DNA of 64,000 nucleotides, from assembly GCA_013298695.1 (NCBI GenBank), contig JAAFIS010000004.1:124001-188000 (forward strand), in the 5' to 3' direction. The translations under genes and the position numbers were made by a program. The notes under the pieces are model-generated. The model had not been told where the DNA came from and searched no databases. It was given only the letters and a program-made list of their open reading frames with translations. Below are positions 8,682-60,115 of the stretch, piece after piece (position 1 is the first letter of the stretch; each line of letters begins with the position of its first letter). The stretch is from Betaproteobacteria bacterium (GTDB lineage Bacteria > Pseudomonadota > Gammaproteobacteria > Burkholderiales > Casimicrobiaceae).

Positions 8682-8780
8682 AGTGATCGCCCAATTTATA
8701 TGGGCGAAAAGGGAGAATCGTGACTTTGTTGAGAACTATTATTTTGTAGATTTTCTCCCCAATAAATTGGGCGAAATATG
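8682..8780. repeat. Paired-palindrome interspersed repeat, copy 1 (best conserved)
   Basis: The left arm CGCCCAATTTATATGGGCG (8688-8706) and the right arm CCCAATAAATTGGG (8758-8771) are each palindromic. They are also inverted repeats of each other, with extra pairing inside (GGGAGA at 8711 with TCTCCC at 8754). The centre is AT-rich. It lies between the convergent kynA and GlcG-like genes. Confidence 0.8.
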
Positions 8781-8847
8781 ATAAAGCTACAATCGATTTG
8801 CGTTGAGCTCAAGCGTTGTTTGAACGTCAGTTTGAGCATCCAGCGAA

Positions 8848-9252
8848 TCAAAGAATCGCCGTAATCCCGGCTTTCGCAATTTGCAAATCTTCCGACGACT
8901 TCACGCCCGAGATGCCGACTGCACCAATCGTGTGTCCGTCAACAATGATCGGCGCGCCGCCCTCAAGCGGGGTCACTGCATCCACCGCGAGAAATGAGAA
9001 GCGGCCTTCGTTCACCATCTTCTCGTACACGCCGCTCTCACGACGGCCAATCGCTGCCGTAATTGCCTTGCGCGGCGCGATGGTCGCCGACACCGGCGCT
9101 GCACCATCGAGCCGCTGCAACCAGAGCAAATGGCCGCCATCATCACAAATCGCAACGGTCACCGCCCAATTGTTTTTCAGTGCTTCCGCTTCACAGGCAG
9201 TTGCGATTTTCTTCACATCATCAGCGGTCAACATCGGGCGAGTTTTCATCAT
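8848..9252 (-). CDS. GlcG/HbpS-family protein
   Basis: Small protein of 134 residues. It shows the GlcG/HbpS (formerly DUF336) pattern: AEALKNNWAVTVAICDDGGHLL, APRKAITAA, and the GGAPIIVDGHTIGAVGISG loop. Family members include the haem-binding HbpS and GlcG of glycolate operons, but most are of unknown function. No signal peptide is seen, so it is probably cytoplasmic. It is convergent with kynA and stands apart from the ferredoxin upstream. Confidence 0.85.
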   Translation of the reverse strand: MMKTRPMLTADDVKKIATACEAEALKNNWAVTVAICDDGGHLLWLQRLDGAAPVSATIAPRKAITAAIGRRESGVYEKMVNEGRFSFLAVDAVTPLEGGAPIIVDGHTIGAVGISGVKSSEDLQIAKAGITAIL

Positions 9253-9267
9253 GGTCTTTCAGTTTGT

Positions 9268-9304
9268 GTACGCTCTCCCGCATTGTGGAAGAGGGCTAGG
9301 GTGA
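9268..9304. repeat. CTCTCCC/GAGGG palindromic repeat
   Basis: CTCTCCCGCATTGTGGAAGAGGGCTAGGGTGAGG resembles the widespread intergenic CTCTCCCC...GAGAGGG...GGTGAGG repeat and is related to the copy inside ccmC at 3611. It fills the gap between the GlcG-like gene and the ferredoxin gene. Confidence 0.5.
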
Positions 9305-9317
9305 GGCAAGTAGCCAA

Positions 9318-9569
9318 CTAGCGCTTGGCCACCAGCGCTTCATATTTCGCGAACAACATCGCTTTTGATTCCACAAAATCCGGGTTCAAAGGAATGCAAT
9401 CGACAGGACACACTTCGCGACACTGCGGCACATCAAAATGCCCCACGCACTCCGTGCATTTCGAAGGCTCGATCACATAGAACTCCGGCCCCATGCTGAT
9501 CGCAGCGTTGGGGCACTCGGGTTCGCATACATCGCAATTGATGCATTCGTCGGTGATCATGAGCGCCAT
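9318..9569 (-). CDS. YfhL-type 4Fe-4S ferredoxin
   Basis: An 83-residue ferredoxin with two cluster motifs: [14 protein letters not shown] near residue 9, then [21 protein letters not shown], whose long insertion between the second and third cysteines is typical of the YfhL/FdxA-like group. It carries low-potential electrons; the partner is unknown. It sits 58 bp beyond livF on the same strand with a hairpin (ACCGATTTCGGT, 9609) between, so it may be its own unit. Confidence 0.9.
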
Positions 9570-57426: not shown

Positions 57427-57544
57427 GTGAGTTGATGAAAAAAAGTGTTGATCGGCGAATCTTGCGTCGAAACCACGTGCGCTGAAAGTGGCGCTGCGAC
57501 GAACGGCGGAAATCGTTCGCAAACGCGCAGGTGCGGTAGTCGCG

Positions 57545-58498
57545 TCAGCGATAGCGACCAATGCGAACCGCCGTTTGCCCAAGCTTTGGCTGCGGCACAG
57601 GCATCACCATCACCGCGTCGGCATGCGGTGTGCGCACCTCACGATCACCGTCGACTGCTATCACCGTCCCCGCCTCTGGAATAACCTCGAGCCCGCGAAG
57701 CGGTCGCCGCCATTTAAATTCGCTGCTGCGCAGCGTGATCACTTCGGAAATCTCAACGATACGCTGCGCGGCGGGTGGCTCAACGCCGATCAAATTGTCG
57801 AGCCAGTCGCGATCAAGCATCTCAAAATGGCGCAGGAAGCGCCACATCACGTTGCAGGCTACGGAGCCTACTGCGCGCTCCCAATGTTGGCCGCACTCGA
57901 CTAGCAGCGCAGTTTTGTTTGAGTTCGCGTCAGCAAAACTTGCGTAATCGCGCAAACGTTTGCCCGCTGAATGCCCCGAGTCGATCAGGATATGCACGGG
58001 TGCGCCCACGGCGTGCGCGAGCGCAAGTCCTTTCACAGTGTCGCCTGCGAGTGCGATCGGGGGTGCGGGCTCAAGCATCGAATGCAGATCAAGCAGATGA
58101 TCAACCGTATCGAAGAACGGCCGCAGCTCGCGCGCTCGTGAAAGCTCGCGCGATTGGCGTTCGCCATCGAGCGTTGTCTCATTCCAAACACGATTGAAAT
58201 CTTCATCTACCGAGCGCGATTCAAACGGCTTTTTCGCGTCGAACGATTCGTAAGCGGCGACGTTTGCAAATACAAACGAGAGCGTTCCTCGTTGCACTTG
58301 AACGCCGCCCCAAAGCGCATTGCCCAGGGCGTTTAGCGCGATAGCGCCGCACACCTCGTTGCCGTGAACCAACGCTGTTACGCAAACGTGCGGCCCATCA
58401 ACGTCGCTTTTGGCGCTCCAAACATACGGGATGCCCACATTGCCTTGCGCCCAACGATCAATTTGCGGAAAGGGAACTTCGATCTGGTGATCGCTCAT
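57545..58498 (-). CDS. Succinylglutamate desuccinylase/aspartoacylase family hydrolase
   Basis: A 317-residue zinc hydrolase: ALVHGNEVCGAIALNAL gives the HxxE motif, LLDLHSMLEP the third zinc histidine region, and TALLVECGQHWE the catalytic glutamate. AstE removes succinate in arginine catabolism; AspA removes acetyl from N-acetylaspartate; other members deacylate small amides. The neighbourhood does not contain the ast operon, so the substrate is open. Divergent from the aldehyde dehydrogenase. Confidence 0.87.
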   Translation of the reverse strand: MSDHQIEVPFPQIDRWAQGNVGIPYVWSAKSDVDGPHVCVTALVHGNEVCGAIALNALGNALWGGVQVQRGTLSFVFANVAAYESFDAKKPFESRSVDEDFNRVWNETTLDGERQSRELSRARELRPFFDTVDHLLDLHSMLEPAPPIALAGDTVKGLALAHAVGAPVHILIDSGHSAGKRLRDYASFADANSNKTALLVECGQHWERAVGSVACNVMWRFLRHFEMLDRDWLDNLIGVEPPAAQRIVEISEVITLRSSEFKWRRPLRGLEVIPEAGTVIAVDGDREVRTPHADAVMVMPVPQPKLGQTAVRIGRYR

Positions 58499-58560
58499 AG
58501 AAACGTTGTTTCGTCGTTGCTGGAAAGAACCGCTATTCTTCCACGCACAAGGAAATCACC

Positions 58561-59997
58561 ATGACCACTCACTTCATCGCTAATCAACGTGTCTCCGGAA
58601 CCAACGAGGAAACGATCCCGGTGCTTGATCCAAGCGATGGACAAGTGTTCGCGCATCTCGCTCGCGGCAATGCGGACGATATTCGCAGCGCCGTAAAAGC
58701 CGCACGCTCGGCAGCTGACGGCGGCGCGTGGAGTCGGCTCGCGCCTGTCGAACGCGGGCGCTTGCTGATGAAACTTGCAAACGCTATCAGCGCGCATCAC
58801 GATGAACTCGCGACGCTTGAAATGCGCGATTGCGGCAAACCTGTGAAACAGGCGAAGGCCGACGCGACCGCATGCGCGCGTTACTTTGAGTTCTACGCGG
58901 GGGCATGTGACAAATTGCATGGCGAGACGATTCCGTACACACCGGGGTTTGCCGTGATGTCGATCTACGAACCCCATGGCGTGACTGGGCACATCATTCC
59001 GTGGAACTACCCGATGCAAATTTTCGGACGCAGCGTGGGCGGCGCGCTCGCGGCGGGCAACGCCTGCGTGGTGAAACCTGCGGAAGACGCGTGTTTGTCG
59101 TTGTTGCGCATCGCAGAACTTGCTGCTGACGTTGGTTTTCCTGACGGCGCGTTGAACATCGTGACGGGCTATGGTCACGAAGCCGGACAAGCTCTCGCTG
59201 ACGCCGAGGGTATCGATCACATTTCATTCACTGGCTCTGCGCGCGTGGGCACGATCATCGCGCAAAGCGCCGCGAAACGTCATGTGCCCGTCACGCTTGA
59301 GCTTGGTGGCAAATCGCCGCAAATCGTATTTGCGGACGCAAATCTTGATGACGCGATTCCGACGATCATCAATGCGATTGTGCAAAACGCGGGGCAAACG
59401 TGCAGCGCAGGTTCGCGCTTGCTGGTGCAGGCGAGCGCGTATGAGCGCGTGCTCGAACTCGTTGGCAAACGCATGAGTGCGTTGCGCGTCGGTGCGGCGA
59501 AATCGGATCTTGATGTCGGTCCGCTGATTCGCGCAACGCAGCTCGAACGAGTCAATGGCTTTTTGAACGATGCAAAGAAAACGGGACTACGCATCGTCGC
59601 CGAAGGCAGCATTGCAAGCGACGCGCCGTCGACGGGTTTTTATGCAAAACCCACGTTGATTGCTGACGTGTCGCCGCAATCACATCTCGCGCAAGAGGAA
59701 GTGTTCGGCCCCGTGCTCGCTGCCATGCCGTTCGATGATGAAGCCGATGCGATTCGCATCGCCAACGCCACGCAATACGGCCTCGTTGCAGGCGTGTGGA
59801 CAGAGAATGGCGGCCGCGCCTTGCGCATCGCGAAAGCGGTGAAGAGCGGTCAAGTGTTTATCAACAATTACGGCGCAGGCGGCGGCGTAGAACTGCCATT
59901 CGGCGGCGTGAAATCGTCGGGCTACGGTCGCGAAAAAGGATTCGAAGCGCTGTACGGATTCAGCGTGATGAAAACCATCGTGACGCGACACGGGTGA
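58561..59997 (+). CDS. NAD-dependent aldehyde dehydrogenase
   Basis: A 478-residue ALDH: IIPWNYPMQIFGRS, FTGSARVG, VTLELGGKSPQIV (catalytic Glu) and NAGQTCSAGSRLL (catalytic Cys). The pattern fits the betaine/gamma-aminobutyraldehyde-like branch, but no neighbour confirms the substrate. A paired-palindrome repeat follows. Confidence 0.92.
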   Translation: MTTHFIANQRVSGTNEETIPVLDPSDGQVFAHLARGNADDIRSAVKAARSAADGGAWSRLAPVERGRLLMKLANAISAHHDELATLEMRDCGKPVKQAKADATACARYFEFYAGACDKLHGETIPYTPGFAVMSIYEPHGVTGHIIPWNYPMQIFGRSVGGALAAGNACVVKPAEDACLSLLRIAELAADVGFPDGALNIVTGYGHEAGQALADAEGIDHISFTGSARVGTIIAQSAAKRHVPVTLELGGKSPQIVFADANLDDAIPTIINAIVQNAGQTCSAGSRLLVQASAYERVLELVGKRMSALRVGAAKSDLDVGPLIRATQLERVNGFLNDAKKTGLRIVAEGSIASDAPSTGFYAKPTLIADVSPQSHLAQEEVFGPVLAAMPFDDEADAIRIANATQYGLVAGVWTENGGRALRIAKAVKSGQVFINNYGAGGGVELPFGGVKSSGYGREKGFEALYGFSVMKTIVTRHG

Positions 59998-60017
59998 AAT
60001 CGACAATGATCTTTCGT

Positions 60018-60115
60018 TCTAATCGCCTAATAACGTTAGGTGTGTGTCTATTTTATCAAATCATCAATAACTGTATTTTTATGAGCTATCGCCCAATTAG
60101 ATCGGGCGAAGCTAG
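60018..60115. repeat. Paired-palindrome repeat, copy 8
   Basis: The left arm is CGCCTAATAACGTTAGGTG (60024-60042). The right arm is TCGCCCAATTAGATCGGGCGA (60089-60109), extended by AGCT flanks (AGCTA and AGCT). The centre is A/T-rich with TATCAAATCATCAATAA. Lies 20 bp beyond the aldehyde dehydrogenase. Confidence 0.75.

Follow-up and report, generated by a model that had tools for sequence, protein, structure and literature searches.

Introduction

The described systems that come closest to the repeated element treated here are the strong binding and cleavage sites of DNA gyrase, the repeats known as BIME-2/REP and REPINs, and the sites wrapped by proteins of the Lrp family. The element recurs along a window of 64,000 nucleotides, the whole stretch of DNA that was analysed, from the genome of a Betaproteobacteria bacterium of the Casimicrobiaceae (contig JAAFIS010000004.1). 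A first-pass annotation of that window had reported a family of paired palindromes in about eight gaps between 8682 and 60115. It is proposed here that the element is probably a site kept by selection, at which DNA would be wrapped by a two-fold symmetric protein with a topological or architectural role; this estimate takes two possible readers together, gyrase and an architectural protein other than gyrase.

Lrp proteins can wrap DNA, and Lrp-type sites are AT-centred palindromes that lie on the wrapped DNA. REP and REPIN sequences carry a GTAG- or GTGG-type head adjoining a hairpin, as described in the excerpts of PMC2817692. For gyrase of E. coli, the excerpts of PMC6379681 give a motif of 130 bp, symmetric about the cut and with phased GC to +/-65 bp, and report an attraction of the enzyme to DNA lying downstream of transcribed regions, as well as to some of the BIME-2. 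The GC period given for the E. coli enzyme is 10.75 bp. For the gyrases of three species, the excerpts of PMC12324340 describe a palindromic region of ~120 nt with a GC periodicity of 10-11 bp, and state that type II enzymes favour A/T at 3.5 bp from the dyad.

How, then, does the element compare? It resembles strong gyrase sites, such as that of phage Mu, and the E. coli Topo-Seq motif in covering ~120-130 bp, in being symmetric about its centre and in having AT and GC phased at about one helical turn out to ~65 bp; moreover, gyrase is drawn behind transcribed genes and the elements favour gene ends. It differs in comprising hundreds of explicit sites with near-invariant arms, in a period near 10 rather than 10.75, and in belonging to one genus only among the genomes searched. 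With BIME-2/REP it shares hundreds of intergenic copies with paired palindromes, and some BIME-2 are cut by gyrase; with REPINs it shares two inverted palindromic units about an AT-rich middle and a species-specific sequence. Unlike Lrp-type wrapping sites, it has modules of different kinds, unequally spaced, within a single dyad. No description of the element appeared in the titles or abstract openings of the literature among the matches listed.

Anatomy and copy number of the element

The element is ~118 bp long and dyad-symmetric, with arms that in the source genome follow the pattern CGCCCAATT-N-AATTGGGCG. Outward from a conserved TCGA at the dyad come AT-rich patches at 3.5, 13.5 and 23.5 bp, the arms centred at 33.5 bp on each side, AT again at 43.5 and 53.5 bp, and finally the outer ends CAGCTT/AAGCTG, with AAGCTG ending near 59 bp. 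The profile of the element correlates with its own reverse complement at r = 0.91 when the two are aligned on the TCGA centre; a shift by one base lowers this to 0.35 and 0.47, and with shifts of two bases or more the values stay within 0.13 of zero. Among 36 arm pairs (up to 5 mismatches) lying within 400 bp of each other, 23 are spaced by exactly 67 bp and 5 by 65, 66 or 68 bp. The pairing of arms reported at first pass therefore stands, while the free range of 63-70 bp between arm centres gives way to a nearly fixed 67 bp and the length of ~100 bp to ~118 bp with conserved outer ends; the centres, described there as barely conserved, contain in the exact central TCGA one of the better conserved parts of the profile.

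Conservation along the element is very uneven, with near-invariant positions beside others at background level. Strong base-specific information is found at the arms, centre and ends, including a near-invariant GCCC and a strong AGCT, and the arm palindrome is 19 bp long in the source genome and 17 bp in the relative G012. AT and GC alternate about every 10 bp. In the mean over four species the AT maxima fall at 3.5, 13.5, 23.5, 33.5, 43.5 and 53.5 bp from the dyad, with further ones at 1.5, 30.5, 36.5, 57.5 and 59.5, and the phasing in the source genome fades past ~68 bp from the dyad.

With up to 3 mismatches the arm pattern occurs 7 times in the window against 0.09 expected, and 297 times in the whole source genome, where the reversed pattern occurs 1 time. 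A gapless profile built on 864 kb of this genome (the window together with C1:1-400000 and C12:1-400000) matches at all eight of the places originally reported, with dyad centres, by which sites are located throughout in positions of the whole window, at 8730, 18432, 22240, 29150, 38235, 43982, 52292 and 60065. The eight thus form one family with paired arms, mostly intergenic, as had been claimed. Two further elements were found by the profile, one centred at 2481 within a ccmA-like gene, the other, which is weak, at 54555; the lowest scores in the window are those at 18432 (35 bits) and 54555 (30 bits).

In total 168 sites score above 18 bits in the 864 kb (88 in C1, 70 in C12 and 10 in the window), which extrapolates to 793, or about 790, per genome of 4.08 Mb, and the genome search suggested with the first report has yielded hundreds of copies rather than few. 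Refinement of the profile behind these 168 calls used those data too, and a held-out test serves as the control. In it a profile from C1 only (80 sites) exceeded 8 bits at 85 peaks in the remaining 464 kb (C12 and the window), against 0 in the reversed sequence and 0 in a Markov-3 surrogate of the same 464 kb. A half-site scan gave 341 matches above 16 bits, 285 of them at called full sites and 56 elsewhere, whereas reversed controls gave 2; a part of the 56 adjoin full elements through a register shift. Isolated arms are rare, since 96 of 103 arms (up to 4 mismatches) fall within called elements.

Placement on the chromosome

Genes were called by a home-made open reading frame (ORF) scorer, and the context counts are approximate. 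Between genes lie 126 of the 168 sites, and the other 42 have their centre inside a called gene. Per gaps of at least 100 bp there are 36 sites for 61 convergent gaps (one of the 36 sits in a 91-bp gap), 69 for 221 tandem and 21 for 82 divergent (Fisher p 2.6e-5, convergent versus rest), and among gaps of 150-200 bp the occupied ones are 8/8 convergent, 11/41 tandem and 0/15 divergent. The convergent preference is repeated in three relatives (convergent 14/34, tandem 29/181, divergent 13/78; p 0.0017). Within tandem gaps the median distance from the centre is 95 to the upstream stop and 169 to the next start, and because the centre lies 55-80 bp past the stop in 42 of 105 tandem or convergent sites, the element often begins directly behind the stop codon. 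One strong element (72.8 bits; L134 3071-3200, G000:C18) is centred 63 bp past the stop codon of gyrA, a position that is unremarkable among ~790.

The mean interval between sites is 5.1 kb. For the 126 intergenic sites the coefficient of variation of the interval is 0.59. Drawing random gaps of matching type and length 1000 times gives 0.87 (standard deviation 0.065, lowest value 0.71). This evenness bears on the idea of a sequence-specific roadblock or insulator, where a bound protein would part neighbouring transcription units with no wrapping or topological role. Such a function would suit the gene-end placement and the convergent preference, but alone it leaves unexplained both a spacing evener than that of matched gaps and a phased 118-bp dyad, and it is considered unlikely.

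Distribution among relatives

The genus is represented by 17 genomes including that of the window, those of the relatives carrying labels of the type G001 to G016. A model of the element, R1, matches 14 of the 17, the source genome included, and 0 of 23 genomes of other genera; counts per matched genome run from 2 (G007) to at least 87, with 6 in G008. A variant is carried by G012, which R1 does not match, so that the element is present in at least 15 of the 17, and with R1 there was no evidence of it in G003 or G016. A search of 399 genomes of the order with a framework pattern matched only G005 and G008, a weak negative, as the source genome, G002 and G010, all carriers, were also missed.

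Further afield, the exact arm occurs in 16 stretches of a collection of genome contigs, of which L061, L065 and L072 come from two Betaproteobacteria metagenome-assembled genomes (MAGs) with the element and the remaining 13 were judged unrelated by eye from their flanks. By identical matches, G002 and G009 correspond to the MAG records JAAFJO01 and JAAFJI01, both titled Betaproteobacteria. A Flavobacterial MAG (L060) has three exact CGCCCAATTAAATTGGGCG in 3 kb; the one inspected is followed by a run of T, and this is probably an unrelated terminator-like repeat. Viral contigs contain no exact arm and give one match to the framework pattern, L135 8843-8957, on a 12.5-kb IMG/VR contig that is either virus or host fragment. 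A single element (8672-8789) found no match at E 0.01 in an E. coli collection of 20,395 records, and none among plasmids.

Three orthologous gaps were compared across the relatives. The gap between a gene of 161 aa and a CorC gene contains the element in all 10 genomes in which it exceeds 100 bp on the locus (the source genome, G001, G002, G005, G006, G010, G011, G012, G013 and G015), and in G008 and G016 the two genes abut, with no element. Behind the gene that precedes radC it is present in 8 genomes (the source genome, G001, G005, G007, G009, G010, G012 and G013) and was not found in G002, G003, G004 and G016; in G011 and G015 the sequence stops at the locus edge, and inspection by eye shows a copy in G011. 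The gap behind glyS contains the element in 3 genomes (the source genome, G002 and G009); in the 12 that lack it there, this gap measures 13-24 bp in 5 and is filled by 86-278 bp of other sequence in 7.

Species profiles were built for G005 (29 sites in 400 kb, with 2 matches in a reversed control), G012 (17 in 200 kb) and G013 (11 in 200 kb). The dyad layout is common to these and the source genome, and the arms are species-specific. G005, G012 and G013 have ends of the AGCTTTTT...AAAAAGCT type (in G013 AAAAAG followed by C or T) and a AAAGTCGACTTT-like centre, while the source genome retains TCGA and AGCT with flanks weaker than in those three. Its arms, already given, are replaced by CGACC...GGTCG in G012, by GCATCCATaACGGGCTTG in G013 and by C.ATT...ATTGGGCTT in G005. 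Because some of the same gaps are occupied across species, the arm sequence appears to have changed at many sites jointly.

Mobile repeat or site kept in place

Could the element be a REPIN- or MITE-like mobile repeat, its ends serving as inverted repeats and its copies spread by a RAYT or other transposase and later decayed? Hundreds of copies, inverted-repeat ends and species-specific arms are what such an origin would give. The copies, however, are nearly independent of one another. Among the 151 best, pairwise identity reaches 0.597 against 0.564 with permuted columns (standard deviation 0.050 against 0.042), a slight excess on the side of a mobile origin that leaves a little dependence, and no two copies are near-identical; the background-level positions beside near-invariant ones, and the occupation of the same gaps across species, likewise weigh against spread by insertion.

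Insertion of an element into a gene should lengthen the product by 39 residues. For 11 in-gene sites, whose genes were hand-picked from the 42 by score and mid-gene position, family or structure alignments span the site with no such excess in 7 (ccmA, a SenA-like enzyme, an epimerase, a TsaD-family protein, an ATP-dependent ligase, a FAD_binding_3 protein and an AMP-binding enzyme). In one of the others, an amidohydrolase, the protein exceeds its profile by 44 residues, as an insertion might give, and 3 are uninformative. A search of the PDB with one in-gene host protein gave no match.

The RAYT link also falls short. The source genome has 3 RAYT-like genes with no element within 1 kb of any of them, and the profile shows no GTAG/GTGG-type head beside the arms. 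RAYT-like (PF01797) genes occur, scattered, in 15 of the 17 genomes of the genus; they are missing from G008 and G016, with 6 and 0 model matches, which fits a mobile origin. Against it, the RAYT of the source genome has no relative at E 1e-10 in the carriers G006 and G015, and has relatives in 7 genera without model matches. One RAYT-like (Y1 transposase) gene, at L024 153-674 (G000:C1), has no adjoining elements and lies near an ORF that reads by eye as a transposase.

The element thus differs from BIME-2/REP in lacking the GTAG head and a RAYT flanked by copies, in its nearly fixed 67-bp spacing within a 118-bp dyad, in occurring as single, evenly spaced copies and in the absence of covariation over both arms; from REPINs it differs in its conserved centre and outer ends, in copies that look kept in place and in showing no RAYT link. 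Membership of REP/REPIN was rejected on the head, the RAYT neighbourhood and the complementary arm changes, and that of the MITEs, with copies made by insertion, on the 7 of 11 hand-picked in-gene sites without length excess. The first-pass remark that the layout was not recognised as REP/BIME, ERIC, MITE or attC is borne out for REP/REPIN by the features compared, and no Rfam family matches in the window; for ERIC the comparison was of one element with E. coli genomes only. The element is hardly an inserted repeat, and a mobile origin is improbable. The uneven conservation, the near-independence of copies, the in-gene sites without length excess and the shared gaps in relatives all argue that the copies are kept in place.

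Hairpins, RNA and terminators

The arms had been taken at first to keep their symmetry as expected if structure is selected. Among the 151 copies, however, the share of complementary base pairs in the two arms is 48.8%, and shuffling columns between copies gives 48.2% (z 0.9), so there is no clear compensatory change over both arms, and what is conserved instead is the dyad of the whole site with its AT/GC phasing, as expected of protein-bound wrapped DNA and not of a hairpin. A selected hairpin or cruciform was set aside on this lack of covariation. The outer half of the arm is often off-palindrome, and the arms of relatives need not be palindromes. A small left-right excess exists over the whole dyad (0.406 against 0.391, z 3.5) and in the arms (0.505 against 0.483, z 3.6). 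One copy, G005:C1:249079-249192, has a long perfect central palindrome, and given this copy, template-switch correction may account for the excess.

An alternative in which the sites act as RNA hairpins or cruciforms, being bidirectional terminators or stabilisers of mRNA 3' ends, would be in keeping with their position behind stop codons and between convergent genes, and taken alone the right arm shows a slight pairing excess (z 2.5, reached by 15 of 2000 shuffles; the left arm has z -0.55). Apart from the missing covariation, a terminator-like hairpin is found in 3 of the 126 elements scanned and in 1 of 126 shuffled ones, 42 of the 168 sites lie inside called genes and 21 between divergent ones, and a comparison of the window with Rfam at gathering scores gives 0 matches. 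For convergent pairs, 9/66 stops in element gaps have such a hairpin against 8/56 in other gaps, and for tandem ones 2/69 against 11/152. This alternative is very improbable. With no clear compensatory change, near-independent copies and 7 of 11 in-gene sites without lengthening, the element is neither a selected hairpin nor, in all likelihood, an inserted repeat.

Proposed wrapping and candidate readers

Wrapping by a symmetric protein is proposed because extent, dyad, phasing and placement together point to 120-130 bp of wrapped DNA. In the proposed mechanism a two-fold symmetric protein assembly would bind the TCGA dyad and wrap ~60-65 bp of phased DNA to its left and to its right. Spread over the chromosome, such sites would then be stations with a topological or architectural task at gene ends, dealing with the supercoils driven by transcription or with folding. 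When only positions without base preference are counted, the phasing is upheld in the source genome (p 0.010) and G005 (0.012) and marginal in G013 (0.050). The best-fitting period is 9.95 in the source genome, 9.55 in G012 and 9.6 in G013. Two observations count against wrapping, namely that in G012 the phasing at positions without base preference fails (p 0.34) and that the best-fitting period of G005 is 7.75.

DNA gyrase is one candidate reader of the predicted wrapped site, a possibility rated at rather less than even. The G-segment would lie at the centre, with the arms and ends on the two GyrA pinwheels. The element shares with the gyrase motif a symmetric extent of ~120-130 bp about the centre, T stands at +3.5 in 72-82% in three relatives, and when the AT profile of the source genome is compared with phage Mu, its highest score in the vicinity of the annotated cut falls on 17881.5, the middle of the 4-bp stagger (rank 134 of 15,864). 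On the central preferences of gyrase, -2A/+6T and -4G/+8C, the picture is mixed, with the T at +3.5 seen in those relatives but A in the source genome.

Several results weigh on the other side. The source genome has A (63%) at +3.5, the favoured C at +5.5 is the top base in 0 of 4 species, and neither the E. coli GC period of 10.75 nor the 10-11 of the three species is matched by the periods found here (9.95, 9.55, 9.6 and 7.75). Other places on Mu score higher than the annotated cut, masking the profile shifts its peak to 17882.5 (rank 183) or 17883.5 (rank 43), and with the four-species profile 17881.5 takes rank 667 of 15,870. The GyrA repeats look ordinary, numbering 6 in 15 genomes and 7 in G004 (none were matched in G013, whose assembly has just a fragment of gyrA). 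Identity of GyrA stands at 90-95% in most members of the genus, among them G012 with its wholly different arms, and at 83% in G016, which shows no element; GyrA can therefore hardly explain the species-specific arms, and this makes gyrase a less likely reader. Finally, the near-invariant GCCC and strong AGCT of the element stand against degenerate published gyrase motifs. The E. coli motif is of this degenerate kind, and the placement of the enzyme there is largely set by supercoiling.

The reader may instead be a genus-specific architectural protein other than gyrase, such as an Lrp-type oligomer or arm dimers with a central factor, folding ~120 bp; this proposal is about as likely as gyrase. 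In its favour, the arms look like direct-readout sites, with palindromes of the lengths given above, base-specific information is strong at arms, centre and ends, and the arms differ between species as one module while GyrA stays at least 90% identical. All 17 genomes of the genus have genes of the Lrp family (the source genome has 6), but being present also in 12 of 23 outside they are no mark of it. The histone-fold family PF00808 is found in 0 of 17, and among the families examined (histone fold and Lrp) no candidate gene for such a protein emerged. Within the window, an Lrp/AsnC-family match at 16578-16802, in a gene that adjoins a proline dehydrogenase gene, is a distant candidate.

Elements of the window

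No strand is assigned to any of the ten elements. The first, 2423..2540 (centre 2481; arms 2439-2457 and 2506-2524; 57-60 bits), lies inside the coding part of a gene (2210-2884) for a CcmA-like ABC ATPase, and the protein aligns to CcmA across the site without large insertion. Convergent gaps are occupied by 8672..8789 (centre 8730; arms 8688-8706 and 8755-8773), by 52234..52351 (centre 52292) and by 38177..38294 (centre 38235), the last of which fills the gap between the gene at 37704-38165 and a radC-family gene and recurs behind the same upstream gene in 7 relatives. The element at 22182..22299 (centre 22240) separates the 161-aa gene, which from its position is presumably ybeY-like, from the CorC-family gene, a gap occupied in 9 relatives. 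That at 29092..29209 (centre 29150) lies between glyS and a gene that we take, by position, to be gmhB-like, and is also found in G002 and G009.

Two elements lie shortly behind stop codons, 43924..44041 (centre 43982, 75 bp behind; an orthologous copy is present in G009) and 60007..60124 (centre 60065, 68 bp behind). The weak elements 18374..18491 (centre 18432, left half degenerate; 34-35 bits) and 54497..54614 (centre 54555; 30-33 bits) are both in tandem gaps. Elsewhere in the window, a tandem repeat array of 12/15 bp at 33392-33751 overlaps a short ORF at 33350-33736.

Significance

Should the proposed reading be true, ~790 long, explicit and evenly spaced sites would amount to a sequence-readable map of supercoil management or of folding anchors, in which the number, spacing and strength of sites would be directly testable. 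It is conceivable, though held with less than even confidence, that the genus has a lattice of its own, made of two-fold symmetric, protein-wrapped stations with a nucleosome-like length of DNA, set every ~5 kb at gene ends and served by a dedicated factor, whose arm specificity was switched between species, with hundreds of sites altered jointly while the positions were kept. Arms that differ between species at conserved positions prompt one to ask how many binding sites change specificity together.

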